From positions 62,001 to 126,000 of the forward strand of contig NW_025954967.1 in the NCBI RefSeq assembly GCF_022376445.1: DNA of 64,000 nucleotides, given 5' to 3'. The position numbers and the translations under genes are program-made. The notes under the pieces are model-generated. The model was given only the letters and a program-made list of their open reading frames with translations. It had not been told where the DNA came from and did not search any database. Source of the stretch: Fomitopsis serialis. Taxonomy: Eukaryota; Basidiomycota; Agaricomycetes; Polyporales; Fomitopsidaceae. Every line of letters begins with the position of its first letter. The stretch's first letter is position 1. This document shows positions 23,817 through 63,906 of this stretch, in pieces.

Positions 23817-25073
23817 ATGCGATCCCAGCGTCGAGGCGTGGAAATTAGGATCGCATCCGAGGGGCACCTCCTAGAAGAATATCAACAAATCTGGGAGGAT
23901 GAAAAAATTATAACATGCATAATCCCAAGTGAGGTTGGGAAGAGTAAGTTGTTTCAGTGTTGTTGTGTGTCTGCATAGTGAGAATTTGTTAACATGTGCA
24001 TGATAGTGTTTGATTTCAAAATAACAAACTTCATGAACATAACAGCAGGCATCTGTTGCTACATTGATGGCATGCCCATCCAACAGGATGACAGTTTTGT
24101 CTCAATCTATGGAGGGGCTAGGAACATACTTGGCTCACAGCTCTTCCACTTTGAGAGACTCTTGTTCCAAGAAATGGAAGTGATAGGTATGCAATGCACT
24201 CCAAAACAGTTGTGAGCATGCTAATGTATGGCATTCAAGATGAACCTGTTGGCCTTGAAGGGCCAGACTTAAGTGCCCTAGGTACCATTGAGTTTCATAT
24301 TTATAGGGCTGGAGAGGATTCAGATGATTCAGATTCCTCATCTGATGATGAGGAAGATGGTGTTCCTGATGACTTTGATTGGTATGCAGCTCCTAAGCCT
24401 ATCACTGAGGACTCAAAGAAGGGGTGGATGCACTCTGTTGAGTGAGTTGTCATTGATTTTATACACCACATTCTCACTCATATGCCTAACCAGTGTCAAA
24501 TTCAAGCCACATGTCTCAACAAATGGACCTGCTGGTGTTGAACTATGGGATGATCTAGATGACCCACATTATATATACAAATTCTTGTATAGACCAACTA
24601 GTAAGTCTTATCATGCATCAGTGACAGTTTTGTTGCTAAGTCCAAACTTAAGCATATCTGCAGGCCAAGGGAATCATTCCACAGGAGCAACCAGAGGAGG
24701 ATCAAGACCATGAAGCAAGCTCACAGTCTGACAAGGATGAAGCTGCAGTAGATGATGACAGGCTGGAGGGTGATAATCAATTTATGGATGCAGATGCAGA
24801 GGATGACAAGGATGACATACAAGACCTACAACAGCTTGAGGTAAGCAGACGAGTTACACTTATTCAGTGTCATTGATACTAGGGGACTAGGCCCAAGTGA
24901 GAGAGAGACGGGAAGATCTGGAAAGGATGGAAAGGGCATTGGCTGATAGGAGGGCCAACGGAAAACGGGCATACGAAGCCAACGAAGGGCCTAACAAAAG
25001 GCTCAAACGGGCAGGTTCCCCCATTCATGCCGCTCTTTACCACGGGACTTGCATTGATCTTACGGAAGACTGA
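23817..25073 (+). CDS. DUF7918-like protein, copy A (AT-rich, intact)
   Basis: Six exons, 23817-23943, 24007-24186, 24240-24441, 24494-24600, 24653-24840 and 24891-25073, give 328 residues without interruption; intron phases 1, 1, 2, 1, 0. The N-terminal module shows the family pattern: VEIRIASEGHLLEEY, ITCIIPSEVGK, FDFKI...YIDGMPI, LGTIEFHIYRA, KKGWMHSV, YIYKFLYRPT and YLQAKGIIP. Then come an acidic stretch, a charged helix (RERREDLERMERAL), a basic patch (NKRLKRAGSP) and a C-terminal CIDLTED resembling a SUMO-interacting motif. The ψKxE motif of copies C-L is not kept here (LKRAGSP). Coding sequence is visibly AT-richer than the flanking genes and shares intron-1 phase and sequence with copy B, so A and B form their own group. 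Function unknown. The family name is recalled, not searched. Confidence 0.75.
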
Positions 25074-26650
25074 CGGAGAATGATATCCATGTTGCAATTG
25101 CATAACACCGTTCGAAGACTGGACGGAATGTGTCGTCGTTAAGTCTGAGACGCAGTCTGAGCCGCTTGTCAGATCAAGGGAACATTCGACACGGCGAGGA
25201 CTAACCTATTGACAGTCTCCTGACGGGCCAACAGTGGCCACTAAGTGGCGACAGGCATGGCCATTTCGCACTGTGATCCGCAGAGCGACGTCATACTGCA
25301 CGGCGTAGCAGTACCAAGGTGCAGCGAGGGTTTATTTTACGCGCGGACGCGCGTCCCTACTGTCAAAGGGAGGTTGCGGGATGTCCTACACGCAGTATGG
25401 AACACTTACCACACTTCCGGGCGTCGAGGGCTATTTTGCCTCGTACTTCAGCCGCACGCGACAGGAAGAACAGGGCACTGGGGTACGAGTCAACATGTGG
25501 CAGGTATGAGGACGACGGGCAGGCGCACTGTTCGGCTGTTGTGCCACGACAAACCTTCCACTATGTAGCGGAGTATCAGCCTGAGTGTCCAGAGATAGCG
25601 AACGAACTATTTCACAGGTTCTGCACGAAGCTGAACTACGCCAGCTCGACTCCGTTCGCGGTCAATTGCTGCGGTAGTGTTGCTGGCTCCGTTAGCTATA
25701 CATATCAATAAAGCAGACAAGCGCAGAGAACGCACCACGTCATGTACAGCGTTCAATACTACGCGCGCACCCTCATGGCGCAATGGCTTCATTGAGTACG
25801 CCGCCGCCGAACGTCTGGAGGTCGCCAGTGGCGATCGAAGGATAAGCCCGTACGCCCAAGATCGCGCGGCAGTCACTGAGACGGCGACGAGAGAAAAATG
25901 GTATTGAATCTGTGATATACGTGGGCCTAATTTCACAGTGAGAACAAGACGGAGAATCTATCAGGGTTGAGTACAGATGGCGGGATGGAAGGGAGGCGGG
26001 CGAAGGATGTGGGTGCACGACGGCAGCGTGCGTAGTAATGCGGGTGCTCGCCACGGACAACGAAGGACCGGACAAGGGCTGGCTCGCCGTCGGACAACTA
26101 CCGGAGGAGCGAAGCAATCATACGCATCAAGGGGAAGCGGTGCATCAAAAGCAGAAGTGAACGCACTTGCGATTTCGACATACTTGTGAAGACTGAAGAA
26201 CGTGCATGGTGGAAGAAGCACAGTCGACTTGCCAGAAGCCCCCCAACGAATTGGTGTGGGAACGGTGAGTAGACATGGTCGACGCTGCGCATCTCACTTG
26301 TCTTAAACTCTACACACTGGCCACGTTCGGAACCTGGAGCCAAATGACAGAGCTGGCATTAGCTGAAAACCGAAGCGAACAGTCCAAGGCGGTGAGACTT
26401 ACCTGTCAACGACTCCCTGAACGCTGCGTTACTGTACTGTCGCAGAGCATAGTCGTATGTATGTACTGCACGGCGCAGCAACATCGAATTGTTGCATGCG
26501 AGTCGCCGCGAGGGCTCTGCAGGTTCTGTCAATCGCCACTGTTGCAGGAAGCCCCTACGTCTCTCGGAAAACGGATGACATTATCGTCGCTACTATGTAA
26601 CTCCTTGCTTTCCTGAGCATCTTGTGGGTGCAACGAGTAGTCGACTCAAG
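25074..26650. other. Gene-poor interval
   Basis: No domain-bearing frame and no exon chain recognised between copy A and SDHAF2. Confidence 0.4.
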
Positions 26651-27184
26651 TTACAAATTTGGCATGCGCCTGACGACCTTGCCCTCATTACGGACGTGGA
26701 TGCGCAGCTTCTCCAGTAAAGTCGAGTCCGCCCACCGCTCCGGCGGAGTCTTCTTTCCCGCAGCCCAGTAGTAGATGTCCCAGTCAGGCTCGTCCATCAG
26801 CTGTGGAGACACAGCCGGCACCCCAGTCAGCCAGACGGGTATCGGGGCACAAGTCAGGGGACACACCTTGTCAAATTCGCGCAGTTCCGCCTCATCCATA
26901 CTGCCCAGCTGTTCCTTTGCAAATGTGCTCAGCACCAGGTCGCTCTCCAGCGTGCCTCGTTTGCGCGCCTGGTACACCAACCGCGCACGCATCGTGTCGA
27001 CCGACTCGCCCTGGCGCGGGAGGGGTTCTGGCGGCGGTGCATTGGCGGGCGATGTTGTCTGTGCGACGTGTTCAGGTGTGTTCGGTAGCAGCCATGGATC
27101 GGCTGAACGCGCTGCCGTCGTGGAGATCAGACGGTTGAACAACGTTCGACGACAATGAGAGAGGATGGGCAGCAAGTTCGCCAT
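26651..27184 (-). CDS. Succinate dehydrogenase assembly factor 2 (SDH5/EMI5 homologue), mitochondrial
   Basis: Needed for covalent FAD attachment to the flavoprotein subunit of succinate dehydrogenase in the mitochondrial matrix. Two exons on the minus strand, 27184-26867 and 26800-26651, flank a 66-nt intron that leaves the frame open when unspliced. Spliced, the product reads EFDKLMDEPDWDIYYW, the family core. Other diagnostic parts are RARLVYQARKRGTLESDL, STFAKEQLGSMDE, ERWADSTLLEKLRIHV and NEGKVVRRMP. Start chosen at 27184 (MANLLPILSHCRRTLFNRL), which gives an Arg-rich presequence; the open frame extends upstream to 27280 but adds nothing conserved. Lies head to head with PP1. A decayed copy of its 5' half is at about 33040-33290. 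Confidence 0.9.
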   Translation of the reverse strand: MANLLPILSHCRRTLFNRLISTTAARSADPWLLPNTPEHVAQTTSPANAPPPEPLPRQGESVDTMRARLVYQARKRGTLESDLVLSTFAKEQLGSMDEAELREFDKVCPLTCAPIPVWLTGVPAVSPQLMDEPDWDIYYWAAGKKTPPERWADSTLLEKLRIHVRNEGKVVRRMPNL

Positions 27185-27849
27185 GACGGTGGAGGCTGAG
27201 CGGAGGATGGTAGGCGCCCGTGGTGCCCACAGCGTCGGTGCGCAGGCCGAAGCCGGGGCTCGCTGCTGCCCAGCTTCCAATTCAGTGAGGTCGATTCAGG
27301 TCGAGTTGTAGCATCGCGCAACTGAGAACAGTCTCGCGTCATGATACAGGCCACCTAACCACGTTTATTGTGACTGAATGAAAGATCTATCCGAGGTGAC
27401 TCGCTTGATTTTGAGTACCGGTTCGCGCACAGATGCGAGGCTCTCTGCCTTCGAATCGGATGATCGGGGCAATGGCGAAGTTGTAGAACAATGCATACGG
27501 GTACGCTGCACGCTGCAGCCCAGCGGGCACAGCGGGCCAGCCAGTCGTAGGAGGAGCGGAGTCTAGAACACGCCGACAGAGCAAGAAGGGAATTCATAGT
27601 CCGCTGCGCACTCCGCCCATGCGCGGTGGCGCGCTGACCATCATCCGACGGTCGTTATCACCCACTTCCACTCTCAAATTTCGCATTTTCCGGCGTTGCA
27701 GTCGTCGTCGCGCACATTCTCGCCGCGAGGTCGCTTGTGCGTCCTCACAAGACCCCGTTCGCAAAGCCGCCCAAAACGCTCTCGTTCACGACCAGGAACG
27801 CCCACGCTCACGACCGATTCCACGACCATCTCTCTGACTTTGTCAAGCC
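27185..27849. promoter_or_regulatory. Bidirectional promoter region between SDHAF2 and PP1
   Basis: 665 bp separate two start codons pointing away from each other. No reading frame of note. Individual sites cannot be assigned by eye. Confidence 0.4.
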
Positions 27850-29221
27850 ATGGCGGATTCTAGCACCGAGATTGACCTCGATTCGGTCATTGACAGGCTT
27901 TTGGAAGGTGAGTAGTGGGTTGCGGGAGCGCAGGAGTGTCTGACGCAGCGAGCGCCGTTCGGCAGTGCGCGGAAATCGTCCCGGGAAGCCTGTGCAGCTT
28001 GCAGAGTACGAAATAAAGTATCTGTGCACAAAAGCACGCGAGATCTTCATTAATCAGCCCATCCTCCTCGAGCTCGAAGCTCCCATCAAGATATGCGGTG
28101 CGTCTCAGCCCTTTCTTCGCTTGCCTTCCGGGTTGACGTGTAGCCCCCTCCGCAACCAAGGTGACATCCACGGGCAGTACTACGACCTCCTGCGGCTCTT
28201 CGAGTACGGCGGATTCCCACCAGAGGCAAATTATCTATTTCTGGGCGATTACGTCGATCGTGGCAAGCAGTCGTTGGAGACCATCTGTCTGTTGTTGGCG
28301 TACAAGATCAAGTACCCGGAGAACTTCTTTGTACTGAGGGGCAACCATGAATGTGCGAGCATCAACAGGATTTATGGTTTCTACGACGAATGTGAGTCAG
28401 AGTAGTGGTTGTATTTCCGTCGTGCGCTTACCACATCCGCGCGGGTCCTAGGCAAGCGCAGATACAACATCAAGCTCTGGAAAACGTTCACCGACTGCTT
28501 TAACTGCCTACCCATCGCCGCCATTATTGACGAGAAGATTTTCACAATGCACGGTGGTCTATCACCCGACCTCCAGTCGATGGAGCAGATTCGGAGAGTG
28601 ATGAGGCCCACGGACGTCCCGGATACGGGTACGTGGTATTCTCTGCTCATAGGTTCATCTCTAACGCATCGCTACAGGTTTACTCTGCGATCTCCTCTGG
28701 TCAGACCCAGACAAGGACATCACAGGGTGGTCAGAGAACGATCGAGGAGTGTCGTTCACGTTCGGGCCCGACGTCGTGTCCAGATTCCTGCAGAAGCACG
28801 ATATGGATCTCATATGCCGCGCACATCAGGTACATCTACTACTTCTTGGGTATGTCCGGTGGGGTCACCACACGTTGCTGACGGCATCGATACGTTCCAG
28901 GTCGTCGAAGATGGCTATGAGTTCTTTGCGAAGCGACATCTGGTGACCCTTTTCTCGGCGCCTAACTATTGCGGCGAGTTCGACAACGCAGGAGCGATGA
29001 TGAGTGTGGACGAGACGCTTCTGTGTTCGTTCCAGGTGCGTCATCTCGACATTCAGTCAATGGCGCAACCCTGACTCACCCTGACTCACCGCGGCGGTAT
29101 AAAATAGATTCTGAAGCCGGCCGAGAAGAAGGCAAAGTACCCGTACGGTGGTGTGAATATGGGGCGGCCGGTTACGCCACCGCGCAAACAGAAGAAGAAG
29201 GACGCGAGCAAGATGGGCTGA
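27850..29221 (+). CDS. GLC7: Serine/threonine protein phosphatase PP1 catalytic subunit
   Basis: Broad-role protein phosphatase (cell cycle, glycogen, septation). Seven exons: 27850-27907, 27966-28097, 28161-28391, 28452-28628, 28678-28829, 28901-29035 and 29108-29221; all junctions are canonical and in frame. Metal-binding and catalytic motifs are complete: [48 protein letters not shown] and [16 protein letters not shown]. The C-terminus holds RPVTPPRKQ, the conserved site where cyclin-dependent kinase inhibits PP1, then a Lys-rich end. The symbol follows budding yeast; other fungi use dis2 or bimG. No frame problems. Confidence 0.95.
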
Positions 29222-31492: not shown

Positions 31493-32749
31493 TCAATCCA
31501 TCGTCAGATCTATGACATCGCCATGGTAGGGCTCAGCATGAATTGGCGAGAGTGACTTCATCCTCTTGTTTGGACCTTCACCTTCCTCACGCATGCGTGT
31601 CCGTTTCTTCTCAGCAAGCTTAGCTTGGATGTCGGACAGTTCCATCTGTCTTATCTGTAGGATTTCTTGGGCCTCCTTGGCTTGAGCCTATATACAATGA
31701 CTCATGTCAGCTTAACCTATACTCAGAAAAAGTTAAAACTGTAATCTTTGTGCTTACCTCCTTTTCCTTCATGTGAGCCAACAAATCAGCCTCACTTTCC
31801 CCATGTTCTGGGTGTGGAATGATTCCAATGGCCTGTAGATAGGCTTTCAGGCAGTCAATGTCCTAAAGTCATGCTCATGCAAAAGATATGCTCACTATGT
31901 GGCTTATACATGAATCTATAGATCCACCAAGGACACTCTTCATCATCCTTCCAAGTCACATGGTCATCAATGCTAGTAGGGTCTTCACTCCATTCAACAC
32001 TACATACAGTTCAAAGACTACACACAACATCTAAAAGTGGCCCAACTCACCTGGTTGTGTGCATCCGACCTTTTTGTGCATCTTCAGGAATGGAGACCTG
32101 TTCCTCAAAGTGAGGAGTAGCCACAGCATGTCCAGATATCATTTTCTGTTTCTTTGAACCTCTACCCTTCACTCTCAGGATATGGAATTCAATAGTGCCC
32201 AAGTCCATCAGGTCAATGTCATTGGCATCATCTGTAACACAAGACTGAATGTCAAATCACATATGATTGGGTAAATCAAGTACCTCTTTCTTTCACAAGT
32301 TGGAAGGTGAGTTTCTTGACATTGAACATGTCTGACTTTACAGTTCCACCATGGGGTAATGTGATTGTGTAGAGTTCAGGTTGCAGAGGCTTCCCATCTA
32401 CATAAACAAGGATGCCTAGTTTTTTGCCAGTCTCATTGGAGATCTCAAAGTCAAACTCTATATGCAAAAGCATTAATGTATGAGTATTTAGCACTAGCAC
32501 GTTCACAGCAAAGCTACCGCATTACTTACCTTGGCCAGTTTGGCTCGGTACAACACAAGAAGTGACTTAGATAGCCGGAGACTCGGAGTGGCGGGAGCCT
32601 GAGCCTCTCTTGGCCCGGGAACCTCTCTTGCCAGTGGATCCATCCTCCCTCTGGATGATTCTCTGGTACCGAATATGTTGAAATTCTTGCAACGGCACAC
32701 CCTCAGATACGATCTTAATTTCCAGAGGTTGCTCCTTGGACATCAACAT
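31493..32749 (-). pseudogene. DUF7918-like copy B (AT-rich), in-frame stop in exon 1
   Basis: Exons on the minus strand: 32749-32530, 32457-32284, 32231-32051, 31999-31896, 31843-31758 and 31687-31493, with intron phases 1, 1, 2, 1, 0 as in copy A. Exon 1 starts MSKEQPLEIKIVSEGVPLQEF and ends TSCVVPSQTGQ, but a TAA lies in frame just before that ending (near 32570), after an extra basic segment absent from copy A. Exons 2-6 are intact: FDFEISNETG...VYVDGKPL, LGTIEFHILRVKG, KKGRMHTT-type segment, WIYRFMYK, YLQAIGIIPHPEH, a long charged helix, NKRMKSLSPIHAEPYHG and the C-terminal VIDLTMD. Visibly AT-rich. A missed exon-1 intron or an alternative start could rescue it, but I found none that keeps frame. 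Confidence 0.65.
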
Positions 32750-35671: not shown

Positions 35672-37014
35672 ATGAGACATCGCGACTGTGAAGTGTTCAT
35701 TAATGCGATGGCCAGGTGCTAGATGAACACAATGTCCACATCGAGGGTAATGTCGTAGACTGTTACGTTGCTAGCGATTCTGGCAAGGTGTGTGCATGCA
35801 TGTGGCCATGTATGAGCGTCACGATGTACATGTACTGACTCATGTGCACGAGGTATTCGAAGTTTTGTGCAACAATCATTCCTCCGAGCATATATCCGTA
35901 TGGACCGCTGTCGACGGCCAGCAGTTTCCTAGGGCGATGGCCATGAAGGCAGGAAATATGGACAGGAAAATGACTTGCGAAGATGGCAAGAATGGGACTA
36001 GATCATTGATGTTCTCGAACATCCCTATCACAGGCATGATTCTCATCTCATTGTCAACGTGTTTCTCAATGAGCGTGTCAGATGACGATGATGCTGCGAG
36101 GGAGATGTCCTGTGGCAGTGAACTTGGTACAATTCAGGTCAAGATTGTACGTTCAATATTCAAGAAGAAGACGTCATGGACAGCTCCCACCGTTGCAAAA
36201 GCGCAGAATCTCGAGCCTATCCATGAGACTGCTAAGAAAGGCGGTTTGCATTGCGTCTCGTGAGTCGGCAGTCTGCTACAATATATTTGATACTTGCCAT
36301 CGTGTTCTGACCACCTCAGTTTCGGAGCGACAATGCCTGTCAAGAAACCTCGTAATAAGCTTTTGCGGGTCTCGCGCATCGACGATTGGCAAGCACCCTA
36401 CATTACTTTCAATTTCCGCTATCGACCTCGTGGTGAGTCGCTTCACTTCCCATGACTTCCCGCTGAGAATATTCACTCTGTGCCAGCGATTCTTCAAGCG
36501 CATGGCATCATAGAATCCCTTCCCCTCGACCAGCCTCGCGTTGACCCATACGACAATGCACTCGCAGGAGGTGCCCCATCGCCAGCCCGCCTGACGTTCC
36601 CAACGCGACTCGTCGTAAACGACGAGACAGGCCTTCTCCTCCAGACGTGCCGCAGAAACGGCCGCGTCAAGATGCTGGTCCATCCTTTGTGATTGCGGGT
36701 TCTCCCGCAGAAGATGCTTTGCTTGGCGGCGATCAGGAGGATGAAAAGTTGCCTCTGTTCAAGGACGAGGAGGACGAGAGTGCAGACGACGCGGACGCGA
36801 TCGAGGTGCGTTCTCACGCAACTCAGCCTATGCTTCACCGTGATCTCACGTACAACACACGTTTCAGGCTCAGATACAGGCTTTACGACAGCGGCTTGAT
36901 CGAACCAAATCGAGGAAGACTCGACGAAGCCAATCTCGATTCGTCAAGAGAGAGACGTCTCCCATTCGGGTAGGCGGGTTCAACGGCGGTGTCATAGACC
37001 TGACGGATGACTGA
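35672..37014 (+). pseudogene. DUF7918-like copy C, two single-base frame breaks
   Basis: Six exons at 35672-35787, 35853-36033, 36081-36259, 36320-36432, 36487-36805 and 36868-37014. Exon 1 is 116 nt where the intact sisters have 117: after MRHRDCEVFI one base is missing before the CDGQVLDEHN-type segment. Exon 5 is also one base short (modulo 3), between the ILQAHGIIE part and the RRKRRDRPSPP basic part. Intron 2 starts with GC instead of GT (acag/gcatga). The rest is well kept: FEVLCNNHSS, ELGTIQVKIVRS, PIHETAKKGGLHCVS, APYITFNFRYRP, and the tail FVKRETSPIRVGGFNGG followed by VIDLTDD. Two lesions plus a weak splice site suggest a young pseudogene, unless they are sequence errors. Confidence 0.7.
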
Positions 37015-37716: not shown

Positions 37717-38977
37717 ATGAGACACCGCGACTGTGAGATAGCCATCACATGTGACGGCAAGCGTCTCGAAGAGTACAATGTCCAAGTGGAGGGAAATGTT
37801 GCCGAGTGCTATATAGCTAGCGAAAGTGACAAGGTATATCTGTTCAGCACGTTCGAGATGCGATGATACTCAGGACAATTTATATCATGAGGTTTTCGAG
37901 ATCAAGTGTAGCAACCACTTCTCGACGTATTTCTCCGTGCAGACTACTGTCGATGGCCAGCAGTTCCCAAGACGGTTGAGCGTCAAAGCGGGATTCAAGA
38001 ATGAAACTCTGGAGTGCGCCGATGGTGACGGGTTCAAGCCGTTGATGTTCTCGAGAATCTGTGTAACAGGTCTGAGCCTTCACAAGTTAGGATAGTCGTC
38101 CTGACTCACTGATGTCATAGATGACGACAATGCACCGAGAAAGTCAAGCTACGCCGACAGCCTCGGTTTGATTGAGATACGCGTTGTCCGTGCAACGATC
38201 GAGAAGGCGGTGCCCTGGACACCTCCGCCGGGTCCGGGTCCAAAAGCTATTGGCCCTATTCATGAGACAATGAAGAAAGGTGGGATGCACTGTGTATCGT
38301 GAGTGTGCATCTCTGTGATTATAACACATTTGAGTCTGAATTGCTTAGCTTCGGAGCGACACAGCGACACAAGAATATTCCCGAGCTTGTAGTACCCTCG
38401 TACATTGACCAGTGGTCTGCGCCATACATAATCTTCAAAATCCGATACAAACCTCTTGGTAAGTAGTCGAGCTCGTTGACGCTTGTGATCCAGTCTCTCA
38501 TTCCGACCCCCAGTGATACTCCAGGCGCAAGGCATAGTAGAACCTGCAGTGGACCAGTCACGCCGTGCTGGGCCATCTAGAAATTCGCCAGTCGTGTCGA
38601 ACCCATTATCGCCAGAACGGGAGGCTGCAAACGGTGCTCGGCGTCGCGACGCACATGATGCCTCTGATTCCGACCGTCCTCGGAAACGGGCTCGTAAGGA
38701 TGGGTCGTCAGCGTCTCCGAGCTCGTCCAAGGGAGAGGGTGATGATGGCGACGACAACCTCACTGCGCTCCAGGTACGTGCCCTCGCATACCTGGCGATG
38801 ACAGAACTGCAACGGCGGTATGCCTCGCAGGCCCAGATGCGTGCCATACGACGCAAGATCACCAAAGCTCAGATACGGAAGATCCAACGTGACCAGTCAA
38901 CCGGAATCAAGCGGGAGGAGTCCCCTATCGATGCTGGGGAGTTTCACGGCGGCGTCATCGACTTGACGGAGGACTGA
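37717..38977 (+). CDS. DUF7918-like protein, copy D (intact)
   Basis: Six exons, 37717-37833, 37892-38069, 38121-38298, 38349-38458, 38514-38773 and 38831-38977, give 329 residues; intron phases 0, 1, 2, 1, 0. The N-terminal beta-rich module (about residues 1-195) includes MRHRDCEIAITCDGKRLEEY, ECYIASESDKVFEIKCSNH, TTVDGQQFPR, LGLIEIRVVRA, PIHETMKKGGMHCVSFGAT and APYIIFKIRYKPL. A charged linker follows with a possible nuclear signal (RPRKRARKDG), an acidic run and a basic helix (MRAIRRKITKAQIRKIQRD). The tail has IKRE (Lys about 308; ψKxE SUMO-acceptor consensus), then SP, and ends GGVIDLTED, resembling a SUMO-interacting motif. Reference copy for group C-H. Function unknown; a nuclear, SUMO-linked role is inference. 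Confidence 0.8.
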
Positions 38978-46756: not shown

Positions 46757-48072
46757 TCAGTCCTCGGTCAAGTCTATGACGCCCCCATCAAAGTCCCCGA
46801 CCTCGATAGGAGATGGCTCTCGCTTGACTGCGCTTGATTGACCACGCTGGCTCTTCCGTATCTGGGCTTTATTGATCTTGCGTCGTATAGCCCGCATCTG
46901 CGCCTGCAATCATACCGTCGTTGCAGCTCCATCATCGACCGGTATGCGAATAACACACCTTGAGCGCGTCCAGATCCTCTGCATCATCTTCATCCTCGCC
47001 CTTTCGAGCACGCGGCTTGACGTCTTCTGTCCCGTCCACGGTCAGCGGGTCTTCCGCGGAGGAAGACGAGCTCGAAGACGACGACTCCTCGACCCGACGC
47101 GGCCGTTTTCGAGGCGGGTAAGAATCGGCTTGTGCATTCCGACGCGGAGCCGCGTTTGCAGCACCCGGCTCTGGCGATGGGCTGTTCGGTGCGACTGACG
47201 AGTTGCCACCGGACGGACCGGCCTGCGGCTGGGCTACCGGTTCTACTATGCCTTGCGCTTGAAGAATCGCTAGAGGCTGGAATAAGAAATCTTGACTAAG
47301 AGCATCAGAGAGTTCTTTCTCTCACCATGAGGTCTGTAGCGAAATTTGAAGTGAACATAGGGCGCAGACCATTGGTCGGTGTACAAGCATTGTATAACAT
47401 CCCCTGAGTATTCTATACGTTGTTTCTCTCCGAAGCTGAGAATTCAGAGTTCAGTATGCAACCGGTGCCGGTGATGACCCGAATGACGCATACTCACGAT
47501 ACACAGTGCATGCCCCCTTTCTTCACGGTCTCATGGATGGAGCCGAAATTCTGCGGATCCAAACCTGATGTGGTCCAGGGCATCCTTTTCTCGTATATCG
47601 CGCGGACGACATGTATCTCTATGAGACCAAGGCTGTTGGCGTTGCTCAGCTCTCTTGCGGCATCGTCGCCATCTGAGGTACAAATTCAGGATCGAATCTC
47701 GACACTCTGTGAGAACTAGACCTGTGACGCAGAGCCTCGCGAACTTCACAGGTCTGACCCAGTGACCATCTCCGCAGTCAAGTAAGACATCTTTCTTGTC
47801 TGCGTCCATCCATGTCCCTCTTGGGAAGGGCCGGCCATCGACAGTAACGCGCACAGCGAAGGATGTCGCAGTGTGATTGGTAAAGCGAATGTTGAACGCC
47901 TGTTATGAGCAGTTATGGCCATCGTGACAACGGACTTGGTGTCAAGTCGACGCACCTTGTCAGATTCGCTGGCTGTATAACATTCAGAAACATTTCCCTC
48001 CACTTGGATATTGTGCTCTTCGAGCTCCTTGCCATCGCATTTAATGAGTACTTCAAGATCGCGGTGCCTCAT
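46757..48072 (-). CDS. DUF7918-like protein, copy E (intact)
   Basis: Minus-strand exons 48072-47956, 47899-47722, 47672-47498, 47435-47326, 47269-46959 and 46903-46757 give 345 residues with intron phases 0, 1, 2, 1, 0. Starts MRHRDLEVLIKCDGKELEEH; the upstream open frame is not conserved. Other landmarks: ECYTASESDK, VTVDGRPFPRG, LGLIEIHVVRA, SIHETVKKGGMHCVSFGEK and APYVHFKFRYRPHG. The linker holds RKRPRR, a Ser run and an acidic run. The final helix (MRAIRRKINKAQIRKS) is close to copy D. Tail: VKRE (Lys about 324), PSP, then GGVIDLTED. First of four tandem minus-strand copies (E-H). Confidence 0.8.
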
Positions 48073-48922: not shown

Positions 48923-50235
48923 TCAGTCTTCCGTTAAGTCTATGATGCCGCCGTTGAAATGACCGACGAGAATGGGAGATGGTTCCCTCTTGACGACGCG
49001 AAATTGGCTACCTTGACCGTTCTGCGCTCTGGCTCGGTCAATCTTCTGCCGTAAGGCCTCCATTTGAGCCTAGAAAGTGAATCCGGTTTCATTTCTACCA
49101 TGTAGCGTTGTTTGGGGACGTACCTCGAGTGCATTGAGACTTTCTGCACCATCGTCGTCCTCACCCTTGGTTCTGAGCGGCTTTGCGTCCTCTGTATCAT
49201 CTGCCCTTAGAAGATCTTCCATGCGGGAACCCGACTCCGAAGACGATGAAGTGCCATCCCGACGAAGTCGTTTGCGAGGTGGCTCCGACTGCGAAGCATC
49301 ATCTTGTCGTTCACGCCGCGAAACTGAACTGGCCGCCTGAGGTGGCGCTGGCGATGGGGTATCTCGTGCGCGTGATGAGGAGCCAGACGGGCCACTGCGT
49401 GGAGGCTGGATTGCTTCCACGATACCTTGTGCCTGAAGAATCGCTATCTCTCAATAGGCTACCTGACCGATAAGTACTCATGATGTCTCCCCTCACCATG
49501 AGGTCTATAGCGGAACTTGAAAGTGATGTATGGCGCGGTCCACTTGTCTATATACGTGACGTCAACTATTGTCTTGCGTATTGGGTATGGCTGCGTGTCT
49601 CCAAAGCTAAAAGCAGTCAGACTCAGACAAGGGTCAAAAGATGCTGGCTTACGAGACACAGTGCATTCCACCTTTTTTGGCAGTCTCATGAATGGGTCCG
49701 ATATTCCGCGCCGTGATCGACGAAGCTTTCCAAGGTCGGTCCTCCTTCCGTATCGCACGAGCAACGCAGACCTCAATTAGACCGAGGTGATCACCATGGC
49801 TCAAAACTTTCGCAGCAGCATCGTCATCTAGTAGGGTGTAGATTGAGAAGAGGACCTCACGTGTTCATGGAACTCGAACCTGTGATGCAGAGTCTCTCGA
49901 ACATCAGTCTCTCGGACTTGTCAACACCATGTTCGCACCGCAGAGTAACGTTAGTATCACCCGCATTCGTGGACTTCGGCCGAGGGAATGGTCGACCGTC
50001 GACGGCAGTACGCATCACCAAAAACGCCGAGGAATGGTTGCTACACTTGATCTCAAATGTCTGCCTCATGTTTGGGAAATCAGTGATTTCACTCCGGTTG
50101 AGTGATTCATGGACATACCTGACCAGATTCGCTCGCTACATAACACTCGATGACGTTATCCTCCGCTTCGACATTGTACTCGTCGAGCGCCTTGCCGTCG
50201 CATGTAATGAGTATTTCACAGTCTCGATGCCTCAT
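48923..50235 (-). CDS. DUF7918-like protein, copy F (intact)
   Basis: Exons 50235-50119, 50060-49880, 49827-49653, 49606-49497, 49443-49124 and 49069-48923 on the minus strand; 349 residues; intron phases 0, 1, 2, 1, 0. Landmarks: MRHRDCEILITCDGKALDEY, ECYVASESGQ, TFEIKCSNHSS, TAVDGRPFPRP, LGLIEVCVARA, PIHETAKKGGMHCVSFGDT and APYITFKFRYRPHG. The linker holds PPRKRLRRDG and Ser/acidic runs; the helix is MEALRQKIDRARAQN. Tail VKRE (Lys about 328), PSPI, then GGIIDLTED, the only copy with I-I-D-L-T. Confidence 0.8.
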
Positions 50236-51028: not shown

Positions 51029-52371
51029 TCAATCGCCCGTCAAGTCGATGACATCGCCATCGAACTTCGCAGCTTTAACAGGTGACGTCTCCCGCTTGAC
51101 GACCGGTGTACGACCGGTGTGGCTTCTTCTCCCCTCGAGGACATTCATTCGGCCTTGCATTGCTCGCATTTGTGCCTACGATGGAGGCATCGTATCAAAC
51201 GTCATGTCGTGGTCGGTAAGATGCGTAAAAACGCACCCGGAGCGCATTCAGTTCATCCTCATCGTCTACATCTTCATCCTTGAGAACGAGCGGCTTGGAT
51301 TCTACCACAGGCGAGGCATGTCTCGTCGTCGTCGTCTCCAGCGGTGAGCTTACTGAAGACGAGGCACCACCATGACGCGGCCGTTTTCGAGGTCCCTCTG
51401 CTCCGATGGTACCTGCCGGCCTCCTTCGAGTCGAACGAGGAGTGGAATCTTCAAGCGGTGCACATCCGGGAGCATCCCGTTGAACGGATATATCAGATGC
51501 TAGATTGGCAAGTGGGGGCTCGGCCACAACGGGCTGTAAGATACCCTGTGCTTGAAGGATTGCTTTTGTTGTGTCAAAATTCGGTCAGCTCGTCGGAGTT
51601 ACGAGACCGGCTCACCCTGGGGTCTGTAGCGAAAATTGAAGGTAACATATGGTGAAGACACCTTGTCAATCAATACGGCCATAGAATTCGTTGTGATCGG
51701 AATTTCCGTGACGGCGCCAAATCTACGTAGGACGCGTGAGTGTGCATATGAGAAAACTTATGGACTCTCACTCACGAAACACAATGCATGCCGCCTTTCT
51801 TTGTCTTTTCGTGCAGAGGCCCAAAGTTTTTGGCGACGTCAGCGGGTGGCTCATAAGGGACGTCCTTGCCAATCTGGACACGACATATGTGGACCTGAAC
51901 CAAGCCCAGATGACTGGCATCTGGAAGGATGCTTGCAGCACTTTCATCATCTCGCACATCGTGAGCACTCGGTGAGACAATGGGATTCTGAGCGGCTTTG
52001 GGCGCACCTGTAACGGAGATGTCGGAGAACATAAGTGCACGGATCTCACTGGCATTATCTCTGTATGTAAGTGCAGTATCCTCTTGATGTGCCGACAGAA
52101 AGCTTGGATAGGGAAATGGTCGACCATCCACACTAATGTCGGCGCTGATATCGGTCGAGGAAGGGTTGTTGATCCAAAGTGTAAACTCCTGATAATTCAA
52201 AGATGTGACCGCTGAATAGCATCCGCGGACCCACTAGTAGTTACATTAACGCACCTTTCCAGCTTCACTTGCTATATAGCAACTAATAACAGTGTCCTCA
52301 ACCTGCACATCGTGTTCGTCCAATACTTTGCCGTCGCACTTGATGAAAATTTGACAGTCACGATGTTTCAT
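51029..52371 (-). CDS. DUF7918-like protein, copy G (intact)
   Basis: Exons 52371-52255, 52188-52008, 51950-51776, 51722-51616, 51562-51237 and 51175-51029 on the minus strand; 350 residues; phases 0, 1, 2, 1, 0. Landmarks: MKHRDCQIFIKCDGKVLDEH, SCYIASEAGK, ISVDGRPFPYP, LGLVQVHICRVQ, LHEKTKKGGMHCVSFGAV and SPYVTFNFRYRP. The linker has GPRKRPRHGG and an acidic run; the helix is MRAMQGRMNVLEGRR. Tail VKRE (Lys about 329), TSP, then GDVIDLTGD. Most divergent of the intact C-H copies. The acceptor of intron 2 (gtgcgag) is chosen for frame; an earlier AG is also present. Confidence 0.78.
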
Positions 52372-53353: not shown

Positions 53354-54677
53354 TCAGTCCTCCGTTAGGTCGATGACATTGCCTTGCAGGTTGCCGACGC
53401 GCACGGGCGACGGCTCCCTCTTCGTAACGACCGAGCGATTGGACTGGCTCCGGTTGTTTTCAATACGATCCAATTGCTCCTGTAAAGTGCGCAGTTGCGC
53501 CTAACGAGAAGCTTAATCAGGGGCGCAGCGAAGCAAACGTATGGTAGACACACCCGTATCACTTTCAGGTCGGCCTCGTCATCTTCAACCTCGACTTTGA
53601 CGACAAACAGCTTGAAATCTCCCGCTGTGGGACAGCTTCCTCTAGAACAGCGCTCGTCGACGATTTGGCCCCGTCCTGACGAGGTCGCTTTTTTGAGCGT
53701 TCGGGGTACAGCCGTCGCCGCGCCTTTTGCGTGATAAGCTGGTGTATGACTCGTCAACCAACACTGGCGTTATAAAATCCTGTGGCGTCATTGCACTCAG
53801 TTGCGGAAGTTGAACTGCAGGAGGCTGTGTGATGCCCTGCACCTGCAGGAGCTCTGATAGTGCATCAAGATCTGAAACTGCAAGCGGATAATAAGACTGT
53901 TCACCGGAGGGCCTGTAGCGGAAGTTGAAGGTGATATACGGTGAGGATAAATTATCGACGTAGTCCGCTGAGAAATACATCGGGGACAGACTCGTCCAAG
54001 TTGCTCCAAACCTATATGCAGCCATGAAATGAATATTTCATAATAATGTTTGGTAACTCACTCAATACAATGCATCCCTCCTTTCTTCGCCGTCTCATGA
54101 ATAGGCCCCGATTTTGCAGACAGCGCACCAGTGCCAGTAGGGTGCTTGTAGGGCACTTCCCAACGAGAACGGATGCGAAACACCAGGATTTGAATCACAT
54201 CTAGTTGAGAGGCGTCGGACAGGGTGCTTGCTGCGTTCTCGTCATCTCGTGAAAATTGAGCAAGTACTTACGATGCATGAGTCTTTAGCGGTGCATACCC
54301 GTTACATGAACATCGGCAAACAAGAGAGGCAGTGTCTCCTTGTCACAAGACATATATGCCGCCTCGCCATCGGCATAGCCCGCCTTGAAGTGTGTTCGAT
54401 AGGGAAACCCCCGTCCGTCCACAAATGCCCATACAGCCATGTCTGTGGAAGACTGATTGCTACATCTGATCTTGAATTCCTGAGACAGGTTCAAGCGCAT
54501 CGTTGGCTCGGATCTCCTGTATGCAACAAATGCAATAGGCCTACCCTTGGAACGCACCTTGCCAGCCTCGCTCGCTACATAGCAACTAATGACGCTGCCG
54601 CCCTCTGCGCGTATATCATGCTCAACCAACGCACGGTTGTCACATTTGATGAGGACTTCAAAGTCTTGATGTCTCAT
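53354..54677 (-). pseudogene. DUF7918-like copy H, exon 5 frame broken
   Basis: Exons on the minus strand: 54677-54558, 54479-54299, 54245-54062, 54011-53905, 53853-53554 and 53500-53354. Exons 1-4 and 6 are intact and in phase (MRHQDFEVLIKCDNRALVEH, SCYVASEAGK, AFVDGRGFPYR, PIHETAKKGGMHC, SSPYITFNFRYRPSG; tail TKREPSPVRVGNLQG followed by NVIDLTED). Exon 5 (300 nt) is two bases short of phase: its start (ELLQVQGITQ), middle basic part (SKKRPRQDGAKSS) and end (GDFKLFVVKVEVEDDEAD) lie in three frames. The end of exon 3 reads ATT-GA before the donor, where sisters have Val-Ser. Lysine motif here is TKRE rather than ψKxE. Confidence 0.7.
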
Positions 54678-55099: not shown

Positions 55100-56346
55100 A
55101 TGCGCAAAGATCACTTCGAGGTGTATATCAAGAGTGATGGCCACGAGTTGCCTGAATACCAGGTGGAAGCCTTAGACGACACGACTCTGGCATGCTACGT
55201 TCCGAGTGAGGTTGGAAAGGTGCACAGTCTGCGTCTATGCTGACGGCACCAAGGCTGAGTGATCGCAGACATTCGAGATTTGCTGGCGCCGCGACACGCG
55301 ACACGACACGCACAGCACATCCGTGAGCTGCTATGTTGACGGGTGGGACGCTGGCGGTACACTCTGTCGCCCAGGTGCTGTCGAGGGTAGTCGCTGGGGC
55401 ATTAGGTGCGCCAAAGACCAACGGAAGCCATTCCAATTCGCCTCGTTGGTCTTAACAGGTAAAACACGTATTCTTTAGGTGTCAAGTCCACGCTGACCTG
55501 CCAACGTGTAGACGACGATACCGTTGCTACCGGCTCAGAGGCACAGCAGGACTCGGGCACGATCCAAGTCAAGCTCAGCTATGCAATCCGTATCGCTAGC
55601 GAACCACACTTCGTGACCAAATTAGACCAGTTCAAGGTTGGGGTCCAGGTGGTGCACGAAAAGAGCAAGCAAATGGGTGTGCAGTGCATCTCGTGAGTGG
55701 TGATCGTCTACATCCGGGGACCGGTGCAGAATCACTGAATTAGTTAGGTAGTCTAGGAGATAGCCGCAAGTGTAAGGCCACGGATAAAGTGTATGCAGAA
55801 TCCGTCAATCCTCAGCAACCTTCGTATTCAAGCTTCATCTTCCGCTACCGCTCCAAGGGTAGGGTAGACCGCACAACGACATATTCCGACGAACTAAACG
55901 CATGACCCATAGATTTCCTCCAAGCCGAGAACATAATGCCTATGAATGCCATAGCCACCAACGATGCCCACAAACACACGTCCACGGGTCGCAAACGTCG
56001 AACTGGCCAGGAGCCACCGAACCTGCCTCGCAAGAGGGTGAGGACTACTACGGAATCAGCAGCTTCTCCGGAACCCAGGTCACCCAACACTCAGTCCGCT
56101 GCGGATGAAGACATCAACGCACTTCAGAGGAAGCTCGACGCAGCACAGGGACGCGTCCGGGTATACCAAGGCAAGATCCAAGCTATCACAGGACCCAGGC
56201 CATCTTCGAGGGTCAAGCCGGAGCGACGAGAGGAGAATCAGGACGTCGATGACTTGACTCGTGGCAACATCAAGAGGACACGCTCCCCTATAGATATTAT
56301 CGTCACTGATGACGAAGTTATTGACTTGACCCTAGATGACGATTGA
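55100..56346 (+). CDS. DUF7918-like protein, copy I (intact)
   Basis: Five exons, 55100-55219, 55269-55458, 55512-55692, 55752-55858 and 55913-56346; 343 residues; intron phases 0, 1, 2, 1. The fifth intron of copies A-H is absent. Landmarks: MRKDHFEVYIKSDGHELPEY, ACYVPSEVGKTFEICWRRDT, CYVDGWDAGG, QRKPFQFASLVLT, SGTIQVKLSYA, VHEKSKQMGVQCIS, SSFIFRYRSKG and FLQAENIMPMN. The linker carries TGRKRRTG and LPRKRVRT; a coiled-coil-like helix follows (LQRKLDAAQGRVRVYQ). The tail has VKPE (Lys about 301, ψKxE), a degenerate VDDLT, and EVIDLTLDDD at the end. Founding-type member of group I-L. Confidence 0.8.
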
Positions 56347-56654
56347 AGTTATCCTGTCGCATCGCTTTGATCCTGTTTCATACTGTACTGGATGATTCAC
56401 TATTCTAGACGTCAGTCCTAATGTTTTCGATGGACAGGGCTAGCTATCGTCGTGAGGTTTGGCAGGGTGGCCCTTGTTGAACATTTTCCTGCCGAACAAT
56501 ATCATTCGGTATGACCTCGCGATACGGTTCTGCCGGAAGTGTCCCATCCCAACATACTTACAGTACTTAGAGGAAGTAGACGATCTCCATGTCTATTGAT
56601 ACAAATGTATATACACTGTGTACATAATGCGATAGATATGTCCACGTCCACATC
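56347..56654. other. Intergenic, convergent genes
   Basis: 3' flanks of copy I and of the hydrolase gene; nothing else seen. Confidence 0.4.
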
Positions 56655-58973: not shown

Positions 58974-60156
58974 TTAATCATCATCAAGAGTCAAGTCAAT
59001 GACGCCCTCGTCGAAGTCTCGTCGCTTGCTCTTGACTCGCTGGGACGAGCCGGATCCTTGAATGGTCTGTATTTGCCTAGGAGAGCCTGGCCTCGAGCAT
59101 GATTGCGTCAAGCTCCTTCCGGAGTGCATTAACGTCTTCGTTCTAGTGAACGAGCTATAGATGGCTTGACATCGTCCGTAAGGGTGTGATTCCGCTGGGG
59201 CGTGGTTTTGCCCTTTTCCGGCTCGGGCCCGCTTCAGTGCATCTGAGCGGGACGGGCCGCGCGACGTTTGGCCCGTAGGCTCCTCGTCCCGGGCACCGAC
59301 AATAGCCCCGTCGTTCCAAGGCATGATACCCTCGGCTTGGAGAAAGTCTGTATATGCGCATGTGAAATTCTTGACAAGACGATACGACGTAGAATTACCC
59401 TTTGAGCGGTACCGGAAAATGAAGTGCGCATGGACGGGTTGTTTCACATCGATATCTCTGGTCACTTCTTTGACCGATGCCTTGCACTTGCGAACATACC
59501 CAGACTGTACACCATTCACAATGAATAACGGTACAGCATACTCTGAGGTAGGTCGGCGCCACTCACGAGACACATTGGACACCCATCTTCTTGCTCTTCT
59601 CATGCACCATCTCAGGTTTGAGTTGATGCGTGGCCTCGAGAACTGCCTTGTAGCCACTCTGACCACATACACGAACCTCACTTCTATGTTCCAAGTCCGG
59701 ACGAGCATGGCGGCCGTCATACTTTCGTCGTCTAGGAGACAGCAAATCAACGGTGACGGCATGAAGGAAACCAAGCATATCTACCTGTTGTGACCAAGGG
59801 GGCGAACACAAACGGTCTCCGTCGATCCACCGTATCTCTTACACCCCATCGACTATTCTCCAGTCTTCCGCGTTCGCTAAAGGTCCCTCCAGCTTTCTTC
59901 CGTCGACATAACACCGCACGGACGAGTCGTATGGGTCGTGTCTCGTGTCGCCGCGCCAGCAAATCTCAAAGGTCTATACTCACAGTCTTCAAGTCAGAGA
60001 CCTCAAAACAAGCATTGACGACATGCGCTCAGCATACCTTTCCGACCTCACTCGGAATATAGCAGGCCACGGTCCTGTCGTCTGCGTTTCCAGGTGGTAT
60101 TCGGGCAACTCGCGGCCGTCACTTTTGATGAACACCTCGAAGTTCCCCGTGCGCAT
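58974..60156 (-). pseudogene. DUF7918-like copy J, heavily broken
   Basis: Group I-L copy. Exon 1 (60156-60038) is 119 nt instead of 120; exon 2 (59973-59785) is 189 instead of 190; exon 3 (59731-59567) is one base short modulo 3; the exon-4 start and the exon-5 helix region are also out of phase. Recognisable parts: MRTGNFEVFIKSDGRELPEY, TFEICWRGDTRHD, RRPFVFAPLVTTG, VHEKSKKMGVQCVS, AHFIFRYRSKG, FLQAEGIMPW, and the end GSSQRVKSKRRDFDEG then VIDLTLDDD. The lysine motif reads VKSK, so ψKxE is lost, and the second, upstream SIM-like motif of copies I, K and L is deleted. Most decayed copy in the window. Confidence 0.7.
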
Positions 60157-60841
60157 GCCTGACAGTGCCGGAGTCTATGGTTGTTCCATTGTGAGGTGTT
60201 GACTAATTATAGTTGGACATACAAGCGGAAATGAGTTGGACGAGTGTTCGCGATTGGTGATAATGAATGGTCGCGTCCAAGTCCGAGTCGCGTCGCAAGT
60301 CGCGACGTACGCCGTCCAGGAACGGTCACGTGTAACACTATACCAACGCGTCGCGCGTCGCGAACCATGGTCTTGAGCTTGAAGATCAGATGGGTAAAGC
60401 CCTCTCCGACGTGCAACTCTCTCCGACGTGCAACTGTTGACGTGGACTTTTCATTCAGCTTGGGATGTATACTCCCAAGATACTCCTCGCTATCTGGACA
60501 AATCTCACTGAGGACTGATGCAACGACTTCGGAGCGATGCGTTCCTATCATCTAACTTATGTGACATGTATACATCTATCGACATACGTAACGTAATGAA
60601 TCGACGGTAGCAGGCTCATCTTCGTATTGTGAGTCAATGTCGACCATGCTAGCATCACGTACTAGCACCGACGGTATATACATGCCATCTTAATTACTAC
60701 GAGAGTGTGCTTCGCTGTACTTCGATACTGATCCCCAGTGAAACCCTACGAGATTAAATACTAGTCGTTGTAACTTAGGTAATTAACGAACCGACCAACG
60801 ATCCACGTAAGTAGCCTGCAAGCAGAATCAACAGAATACCA
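60157..60841. other. Intergenic between copies J and K
   Basis: No gene seen. Contains a tandem repeat of about 17 bp (ctctccgacgtgcaact, twice) at about 60402-60436. Confidence 0.4.
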
Positions 60842-62078
60842 TCAATCATCATCAAGAGTCAAGTCAATCACGCCACCATGGGTTGCAAGCCGAATAAGTG
60901 AGTATTCCCTTTTGATTGCACCGTGAGTCAAGTGAATGACATCCTCTTCAGCGTCTTGCCGTTCCGTTTTGACTCTCTGAGACGAGCCAGATCCACGAAC
61001 GGTTTGTATTCTGCTCTGGAGTACCTGAGCTCGTTGTTGGACTGCGTCAAGCTCATGTTGAAGTGCAACAACGTCTTCGTCTTCAGCAAGTTGAGCTGCA
61101 GATGGCTTGGTGTCTGCCTGGAGTGTTAAAGGCACGGCGAGCATGGCGCTCTTTGCTCTTTTGCGGCTTGGTCCTGCTTCTGTGACATCCGGACGCGACG
61201 AATAGACGCGTTTGCGCCCCGCGGTCGCTTGTGCCTGATCGTTATTTGCAGGTCGCTCGTCCAAAGGCATGATACCTTCAGCCTGAAGGAAATCTACGCA
61301 CGGAAGTGTCAGGGTCATAGCAGAGTTATAACATGTCCTTTCACCTCTGGAATGGTACCGGAATATGAAGCGCGCGTAGAAGGGCACATCTTCGTCGACG
61401 AGTGTGCTACTGTGCGTGATGGTTGCCGGGCATGGGCGAGCCTCATCTAGCCTAACATAATGAATACAATGTGATTTGTACTCAATAAAACGTGACTCAC
61501 GATACACAGTGCGCTCCCATCTTCTTGCTCCTTTCATGCACCGTCTGATTCACGAAGCCAATGGGTTGATTCTTAAACGGTCTTGTCCCGATGCGGATGG
61601 CATGTGCAAACTCCACGTTTATGGTTCCCAATGTCTCCGCATCTATGGCTGGAGAAGCATCGTCGTCTGTGGAAGGTGTGAGTAATCCAACAATCGCAGG
61701 GAGATTAACATCCCAACCTGTCAGAGCTAACGGGGCAAACACAAAGGGCCTCCGCTGATCTTTAGCCACTCTCATGCCCCAGCGATGGTCCCTCGCTATT
61801 CCTGGACGCAACACTTTCCACCCGCTTTGTGGCCATCGACATAGTATTTCACGGTTGTATCGTGTTTGTCGCCTCGCGTGTCGCCATTGCAGTAGATGTC
61901 GAAGGTCTGCAAGAGCCGCTCAGTCGTAGAGTGCCATACAGCAGAAGACAAAGACGTACCTTTCCGACTTCACTCGGATATAGCAGGCCACGGTCTTGTC
62001 GTCTACGGCTTCCAGTTGGTACTCGGGCAGCTCGCGGCCCTCACTTTTAATCAACACCTCGAAGTTGCCCTTGCGCAT
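60842..62078 (-). pseudogene. DUF7918-like copy K, single-base losses in exons 1 and 2
   Basis: Exons on the minus strand: 62078-61960, 61906-61718, 61666-61501, 61451-61345 and 61293-60842. Exon 1 is 119 nt (sisters 120), with a base lost in the codons for CYIPSE; exon 2 is 189 nt (sisters 190), lost between GGK and the PGIARDHRWGMRV segment. Exons 3-5 are intact: LGTINVEFAHA, VHERSKKMGAHCVS, FYARFIFRYHSRG, FLQAEGIMPLDE, and a coiled-coil helix (LQHELDAVQQRAQVLQ). Tail has VKTE (ψKxE), then VIHLTHG, IKREYS and GGVIDLTLDDD, so two lysine motifs and two SIM-like motifs in tandem. If the two losses are sequence errors this is a working gene. Confidence 0.72.
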
Positions 62079-62654
62079 GATGCTCGACAATGCCAGAGTG
62101 TATGACTGTTCTACTAAGTCGTGAAGTGAACGTTGTCAATGGCTGTACACGCAAGCAGAGCACGAGCCGTACGGGCGTTCGTATGATGGAACGATCACGT
62201 GTGTAATGTTACTTTACCACCTCGTCGCGTGGGCGGTAGCACATTACAATGTACGCACAGATATTCTCGCATTTCACGGGCTCAGAGTAGCGCATACAGT
62301 CCTATTCACCAGTAGACGAATGTGTCAATGTTCTCCGAGCATATCATATTTGTTATGAACCGCTGCCCTTCTCGACCTTCAACGGAGGCGGCCGGACGTG
62401 ACATTGTAGTGTTGCGCTCTGTGATATATTACTAAGTCATGCTGTGTATGTGAGCGTATGAATGGAAATTGGCCTTCAGATGTTGATACAGCGAGCTCGG
62501 TACAAATACAATATCGCGCACCAGCTATCATGGCCTATCAATGCCACGGCACATAGTCCTGGACCAATTGATAAGCAGCTAGTCACTGTTTGTCGTATGA
62601 CGGTTCAAGTTGAATAAACATAGAGAATAATGAATAACTTCCAATAAAAGTACA
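62079..62654. other. Intergenic between copies K and L
   Basis: No gene seen. Confidence 0.4.
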
Positions 62655-63906
62655 TCAATCATCGTCTAGAGTCAAGTCAATCACACCACCATTAGACTGA
62701 AGACTGGTGGGAGAGCGCTCCCTCTTGACGTTGCCGCGAGTCAGGTCAACGACATCCTCGTTCGGATCTTGTTGCTCCCTCTTGACCCTCCGAGATGAGC
62801 CGGATCTCTGGATGGTTCGCAACTTGCTCTGGAGGATTTGAGCCCGCTGTTGGACTGAGTCGAGCTCATTCTGGATTGCAACCACATCTTCATCCTCCGT
62901 AAGCCGAGTTGCGGGTGACCTGACGTCTGCCTGAGGGGCTGAGGGTGCAGCAAGGACATCGGTTCTCCTTTTTTTGCGGCTTGACCCCGCTATCGAGTAG
63001 TCAACGCGTATTCGTTCTCGCATTATGTATGGTTGTTCTGCATTGCCACTACCAGAGCTTCCGTTCAAAGGCATAATACCTTCAGCCTGAAGGTAATCTG
63101 CAAGCAGAAACGTGAATCTCATTGCCAAGTGGTGCCATATATCGTCTCACCCTTAAAACGGTACCGGAATATGAAGCGCGCATAGAAGGGGATATTTTCG
63201 TCGACGAGCTTGCTTTGTTTCCAGAATGTCGATAGGTCGCAGCGACGAGCCTCATCCAGCCTAGTACATCGAACCCTTGTTCGATGTGAGGTGGCTTCGA
63301 CTGAGTGGAATGTAGCTTACGACACACATTGCGTCCCCATCTTCTTGCTTCTTTCATGTACCGTCAGAGCCGTGAACTCATTGGACGTGTCCCGAATCGG
63401 CATGTTCCCAACATGAATGACATGAGCAAGCGTCACGTCGATAGTGCCTAGGTCGGGGTGCGCTTCAGAACCCATGATTGAGGTATCGTCGTCTGCGGAA
63501 AGAGTGAGTACCTCAGCACTCGTAGGGGGATAGGCATCGTACCAGTCAGAGCTAACGATGCAAATACAAACGGACTCCGCTGGTCCGTAGCCACCCTCAC
63601 GCCCCAACGACGGTTCTTCACTAGTCCTGGCTGAGAGGGCTTTCCACCCGCATTGCGGCCGTCGACATGGCATCTCACAGACGTGATGTGGCTGTCACCT
63701 CGCGTGTCGCCGCGCCAGCATATTTCGAATGTCTGTGATGGTCATCAGTAACGTGGAATCATTCAGCAGAAGATATGAAGACGTGCCTTTCCGACCTCAC
63801 TCGGGATGTAGCAAGCCACTGTCTTGTCGTCGACGGCTTCCACTTGGTATTCAGACAGTTCACGCCCCTCGCTTTTGATGAACACTTTAAATTTGCCCTT
63901 GCGCAT
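62655..63906 (-). CDS. DUF7918-like protein, copy L (intact, GC splice donor)
   Basis: Exons on the minus strand: 63906-63787, 63732-63543, 63492-63321, 63260-63151 and 63097-62655; 344 residues; phases 0, 1, 2, 1. Intron 1 begins AAG/GCACGT, a GC rather than GT donor; all other junctions are canonical. Landmarks: MRKGKFKVFIKSEGRELSEY, ACYIPSEVGK, TFEICWRGDTRGD, CHVDGRNAGGK, SPFVFASLALT, LGTIDVTLAHV, VHERSKKMGTQCVS, FYARFIFRYRFKG and YLQAEGIMPLNG. A coiled-coil helix (IQNELDSVQQRAQILQ) precedes a doubled tail: VKRE (Lys about 303), VVDLT (about 313-317), VKRE again (about 321-324), SP, and VIDLTLDDD (from about 336). Best-preserved group I-L member. Confidence 0.78.

Follow-up and report, generated by a model that had tools for sequence, protein, structure and literature searches.

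We have analysed a 64,000-nucleotide stretch of the genome of the fungus Fomitopsis serialis (contig NW_025954967.1, positions 62,001 to 126,000 of the forward strand; hereafter, the window), which is part of a 694-kb contig in an assembly of 66 Mb. Between 23817 (the start codon of copy A) and 63906 (the start codon of copy L), it carries twelve genes of the DUF7918 family (Pfam PF25534), at the coordinates given by an initial annotation of this DNA. Our main subject is the C-terminal tail of the encoded proteins, in most of which a motif of the type that accepts SUMO (small ubiquitin-like modifier) precedes a motif of the SUMO-interacting type (SIM). All twelve copies were modelled with a spliced-alignment script; the model of copy E is identical to the public F. 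serialis protein P0001. When scanned with the Pfam model, as the initial annotation had proposed, each of the twelve exceeded the curated cut-off of 27 bits, as did a thirteenth copy, M, that lies approximately 0.5–1.7 kb beyond the end of the window (79.7 bits). For C, H, J and K, the domain parts alone were scored; J passes on its last stretch only, with 30.9 bits against the cut-off of 27. The Pfam model covers 228 positions and the head of the protein only: all twelve copies share this head domain with Pfam DUF7918, whereas the tail module lies outside the model. A literature search found no paper that names DUF7918, and no function assigned to the family.

The tails of copies C to H conform to the consensus [VIT]KRExSP[IV]x(8)[VI]IDLTxD. 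Eleven of the twelve copies end in [VI]IDLT and fit the pattern by which a passage of PMC3395311 defines class-b SIMs, (PILVM)(ILVM)DLT; copy A has CIDLT instead and falls outside it. The initial annotation had set out the order of the motifs for C to L, where we find it exactly as described: VIDLT or IIDLT stands at the end of all ten, with ψKxE nearby in eight, TKRE in H and VKSK in J. That account omitted A and B, even though these end in CIDLTED and VIDLTMD; both lack ψKxE, and both keep Ser-Pro-Ile ahead of the terminal motif. In copies I, K and L the SUMO-type module is present twice, in tandem, and in J once. The tandem arrays have their imperfections: I has IKRT as its second lysine motif, and the first SIM-like motif is imperfect in both I and K. 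Judged by its sequence, the tail appears to be a composite SUMO module, in which an acceptor-type ψKxE, often followed by Ser-Pro, is succeeded about 15 residues further on by a class-b SIM at or close to the C-terminus.

This ending is rare in the genome at large. A DNA pattern for [VI]IDLTxD followed by a stop codon occurs at 14 places in 66 Mb, and its reversed control at none; 12 of the 14 places are DUF7918 loci or their second haplotype copies, and the other two are two copies of one gene that, by eye, does not encode a DUF7918 protein. That gene, at C445:55801-59200, is the sole other one with a C-terminal VIDLTxD that was found in the genome; its protein ends ...RKRKRARVSYDTSDVIDLTDD. 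At C444:7301-8700 a multi-SIM protein is encoded, in which KRRR stretches separate three VIDLT[LE]D motifs.

Family members were recruited with the N-terminal domain alone, to avoid bias towards the tail; this yielded 126 proteins (P0014–P0139), for which one of the two recruiting searches contributed the best 120 of its 194 matches. Proteins P0001–P0013 are excluded from the count because they were found by a full-length query; the 126 include public proteins whose domain parts served as queries. Bearing in mind that these 126 proteins are related, and hence not 126 independent events, [VI]IDLT lies within the last 15 residues in 101 of them (0.0 in shuffled tails), a relaxed terminal SIM is present in 107 (0.19 in shuffled tails), and the relaxed SIM is combined with ψKx[ED] no more than 40 residues upstream in 102 (0.02 in shuffled tails). 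With the SIM held fixed and the upstream letters shuffled, 15.8 retain ψKx[ED], compared with the observed 102 of 107. The chain ends exactly at the T of the motif in 65/126 proteins. Furthermore, the relative entropy of the VIDLT columns is 3.1–4.3 bits, as against 0.24–0.56 bits for the columns 20–45 residues upstream, which bears out the expectation that in other species the motif is conserved above the flanking tail. At least two SIM-like motifs are found in the last 75 residues of 27/139 proteins, including those from Mycena, Lentinus, Cerioporus and Rhodofomes, and tandem modules therefore recur. By name, the recruited organisms include Trametes, Mycena, Suillus, Thelephora, Tulasnella and Calocera, genera that stand for Polyporales, Agaricales, Boletales, Thelephorales, Cantharellales and Dacrymycetes, respectively. 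To judge from neighbouring gene numbers, DUF7918 genes are clustered in several species among these mushroom-forming fungi and their jelly-fungus relatives. Also among the 126 is the public model of copy A (P0018), which stops before the tail because another splice acceptor was chosen; the acceptor used here yields the LEAQ junction that is usual in the family. Models that lose the tail in this way would make the motif seem rarer than it really is.

We also considered whether the lysine and Ser-Pro might together constitute a phosphorylation-dependent SUMOylation motif (PDSM), in which, according to a passage of PMC3395311, the Ser of Ser-Pro is five residues past the lysine. This subtype was rejected because the Ser-Pro is one residue too near: counted from the last lysine motif before the SIM, it is at K+5 in 0/102 proteins and at K+4 in 47/102.

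Selection on the tail was assessed from eight aligned sequences (C to H plus both haplotype copies of a further locus, N), in which 12 motif codons were compared with 11 other codons. Of 336 comparisons of motif codons, 135 differ only synonymously and 20 change the amino acid, versus 72 and 174, respectively, of 308 comparisons of the other codons. The pooled nonsynonymous (dN) and synonymous (dS) rates are 0.037 and 1.417 for the motif (dN/dS 0.026), and 0.434 and 2.208 for the remainder (dN/dS 0.197); these ratios are rough, in that dS is near saturation, the pairs are not independent and the motif positions were picked after the tails had been viewed, but the contrast is large. The motif codons are under purifying selection. 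A tree built from 31 domain sequences places Rhodofomes proteins within both the I–M and the C–H groups; not all of the duplication is recent. The cluster represents a local expansion of the family. The earlier description of a rapidly duplicating family holds only in part, given the presence of Rhodofomes proteins inside the main clades.

The machinery with which such tails might engage is encoded in the same genome. Its SUMO gene is on contig C634, and the joined exon pieces match a SUMO2 chain (3.4e-32) and Smt3 (8e-19). The two zf-MIZ matches found, on C74 and C112, apparently represent a single gene in its two haplotypes; the exon pieces of the C74 version, when joined, match PIAS3, PIAS2, SIZ2 and SIZ1. 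This Siz/PIAS-type gene (C74:81951-83000) has RVKRELSPSNELHASSLKTVPADVIDLTLDSDDDE past its zinc finger, and encodes EIVILDSDDEDEGRVKRELSPSNELHASSLKTVPADVIDLTLDSDDDE after the MIZ finger: the module reads RVKRELSP...DVIDLTLD, and its two motifs, as well as their order, are those of the DUF7918 tails. Passages of the SUMO literature describe VIDLT as the SIM of human PIAS1 (PMC4907222), random-library binders selected on yeast SUMO that repeatedly begin with IDLT (PMC4000234), and a VIDLT peptide used as a SIM competitor (PMC3526273). The proposed link of the tails to SUMO finds good support in their conservation, in selection and in the matching module of the Siz/PIAS-type E3.

The head and the helix are known from prediction. 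AlphaFold2 models contain a confident β-sandwich over approximately residues 1–200, for which the predicted local distance difference test (pLDDT) values of the block are 86–98 in copy E and 77–98 in the Calocera protein P0087, and a long helix before the tail (residues 289–317 in E and 235–273 in the Calocera member). In these models, the intact protein would comprise a β-sandwich head of some 200 residues, a disordered linker with basic stretches, the helix and a disordered tail. Stretches rich in Lys and Arg (KR-rich) occur after residue 200 in 107/122 proteins long enough for the test; they are the basis on which a nuclear location is proposed here. The libraries searched with the predicted head were PDB chains, none of which matches it at E up to 0.001, and viral proteins, among which Foldseek returned 20 and 31 matches at this threshold for the models of copy E and P0087, respectively; the best E values for the two separate models are 1.7e-8 and 4.5e-12. 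Almost all of the matches are to uncharacterised proteins from large DNA viruses, including PrGVORF52, P22.2, Wsv390 and ISKNV ORF098; the sources are of ascovirus, granulovirus, nucleopolyhedrovirus, nudivirus, iridovirus, nimavirus and giant-virus type, with an abalone herpesvirus and, for one match, a phage. The resemblance of these proteins to the DUF7918 head is one of predicted fold; identity in the matches at E ≤ 0.001 is 6–16%. Weaker viral matches include RING-containing giant-virus proteins and ranavirus ICP-18.

Table 1. DUF7918 genes and selected features; coordinates are those of the window unless another contig is named.
Feature	Coordinates	Strand	Tail and remarks
DUF7918 copy A	23817..25073	+	LKRAGSPI...CIDLTED
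DUF7918 copy B	31493..32743	-	MKSLSPI...VIDLTMD; without ψKxE
DUF7918 copy C	35672..37014	+	VKRETSPI...VIDLTDD; exon 1 frameshift here
DUF7918 copy D	37717..38977	+	IKREESPI...VIDLTED; public protein P0004
DUF7918 copy E	46757..48072	-	VKREPSPI...VIDLTED; public protein P0001
DUF7918 copy F	48923..50235	-	VKREPSPI...IIDLTED; public protein P0002
DUF7918 copy G	51029..52371	-	VKRETSPV...VIDLTGD; public protein P0009
DUF7918 copy H	53354..54677	-	TKREPSPV...VIDLTED; linker reading uncertain
DUF7918 copy I	55100..56346	+	double tail, VKPE...DVDDLT + IKRTRSPI...VIDLTLDDD
DUF7918 copy J	58974..60156	-	single module, VKSK...VIDLTLDDD; two frameshifts
DUF7918 copy K	60842..62078	-	double tail, VKTE...VIHLT + IKRE...VIDLTLDDD; exons 1-2 frameshifted here
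DUF7918 copy L	62655..63906	-	double tail, VKRE...VVDLT + VKRERSP...VIDLTLDDD
Terminal SIM of copy L (example of the motif)	62670..62684	-	VIDLT
DUF7918 gene N	7359-8687 of C334:1005001-1015000		peak of divergence versus C592

The frameshifts of copies C and K belong to the window haplotype: C is intact in haplotig C525, and K in haplotig C218. Those of J are likewise in the window haplotype, and copy H, which requires an atypical linker intron, is doubtful. Outside the cluster, locus N is on contig C334 and, in the second haplotype, on C592; near C667:148-150 kb there is probably a further copy, which is more divergent and has a poor gene model. Ten neighbouring reading frames were scanned; these include a Ser/Thr protein phosphatase at 27.9–29.1 kb (two frames), a glycosyltransferase-type match at 34–35 kb, a long frame at 40–43 kb with a PH match that is under its cut-off, and a DEAD-box helicase at 44–45 kb. 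Five of the ten gave no match.

The two haplotypes differ unevenly at these loci. In 250-base bins, C334 and C592 differ by 0–1.2% at the far left, then by gradually more until 9–28% is reached across gene N (with 17% just upstream too), and by mostly 0–2.4% on the right side, where the last kilobase or so is again at 2.4–4.0%. The two N proteins are 77.7% identical (269/346; dN 0.112, dS 0.335). Divergence between copy K and its counterpart on C218 is 7.6–17.9% per bin, with an abrupt boundary where K starts, and copy L differs from the second haplotype by 0.8–6.4% per bin; for B, C and D versus C525 the figure is at most 0.6% per 500-base bin, for M it is at most 0.8%, and one 1.7-kb control haplotype pair is 99.65% identical. 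These values come from one genome and a handful of haplotigs, which assemblers retain where divergence is high, and balancing selection, introgression or conversion may each fit the divergence at N.

We consider it likely that the DUF7918 protein is a SUMO-wired nuclear adaptor, made up of a β-sandwich head, a helix, and a tail that binds SUMO and is probably SUMOylated itself. We infer from the data above that the tail binds SUMO and is itself SUMOylated, that the protein is nuclear and self-associates, and that the head has a partner. The head would bind this partner and the predicted helix would self-associate, while the docking sites of the SIM would be proteins that carry SUMO, or else the Ubc9/Siz machinery; the nearby lysine would be SUMOylated with the help of the SIM, and proline-directed phosphorylation could possibly tune that modification. 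Two modules, in those copies that have them, would raise avidity. Several points weigh against this proposal. Copies A and B are without ψKxE, and H and J have TKRE and VKSK; 19/126 relatives lack even the relaxed terminal motif, and five more lack the upstream lysine motif, although some of the motif-less proteins look like faulty gene models.

Three other explanations were weighed. The same motif pair in the Siz/PIAS-type E3 raises the idea that DUF7918 takes part in SUMO ligation, as a cofactor or as an E3-like adaptor: the module would hold the charged E2, SUMO would be steered onto head-bound proteins and the lysine would be an automodification site. We find this unlikely, as none of the 13 copies scanned has a zf-MIZ or other ligase domain, and, according to a passage of the review PMC12751080, plain SUMO readers commonly have SIMs too. 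The KRE followed by SP could, instead, serve for nuclear import or as the target of a kinase, with the acidic, hydrophobic end bound to something other than SUMO; in C–H and N, Ser-Pro varies as little as the lysine motif does, and the abundant KR-rich stretches are in keeping with this. It is quite unlikely, in our judgement, given that the core exactly fits a class-b SIM and that the Siz/PIAS-type E3 has the same pair. That the tails are alike merely because a family in decay has recently undergone copying or gene conversion, with no function kept, strikes us as very improbable: frameshifts in C, J and K and the patchiness of the divergence between haplotypes at K and L, which could be conversion, speak for it, but the differences among motif codons are overwhelmingly synonymous, the tail is common to proteins from Calocera, Tulasnella and Mycena, and the Rhodofomes proteins nest inside the main clades.

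A further proposal builds upon the SUMO-wired adaptor. A passage of PMC8229728 describes basidiomycete nonself recognition as poorly understood, and suggests, in a model for somatic incompatibility, that it could use post-translational marks checked by polymorphic reader/writer proteins. Because DUF7918 fits that outline, we raise, and do no more than raise, the idea that basidiomycetes use these proteins, in polymorphic forms, as SUMO-wired sensors in the nucleus that detect nonself (invading DNA or foreign nuclei), which we rate as a long shot. A variable head would recognise or mark its partner, and the conserved tail would couple the head to SUMO; balancing selection would keep alleles, as might be read from the haplotype divergence at N, which reaches 28%, and proteins with the same predicted head fold would be found in large DNA viruses. 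If the divergence at N does reflect balancing selection, the DUF7918 family becomes a candidate for nonself recognition. More immediately, the conserved acceptor-plus-SIM tail gives DUF7918 its first testable function, one that can be addressed cheaply, directly and clade-wide.

Among known systems, SUMO-targeted ubiquitin ligases of the RNF4 type combine a RING finger with several SIMs; no RING family matched in the 13 DUF7918 copies scanned, and we rejected this identity. RNF4 had been offered initially as the SIM analogue, a role for which PIAS, with the VIDLT of PIAS1, is the closer choice. The C-terminal SIM region of Siz/PIAS E3 ligases resembles the DUF7918 tail in having VKRExSP, then DVIDLTLD and acidic residues. 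It differs in that the DUF7918 module is at the extreme C-terminus and that PF02891 (zf-MIZ) has no match in the 13 copies, on which criterion we rejected a Siz/PIAS ligase identity for the copies themselves. As regards the manner in which DUF7918 is proposed to work, DAXX, a SUMO reader the SIM of which is C-terminal, offers a parallel. Its SIM, IIVLSDSD according to a passage of PMC8616421, is of another class (IIVL then SDSD, not IDLT); the likeness is that of a non-enzymatic nuclear adaptor with a SIM to the adaptor that we propose.

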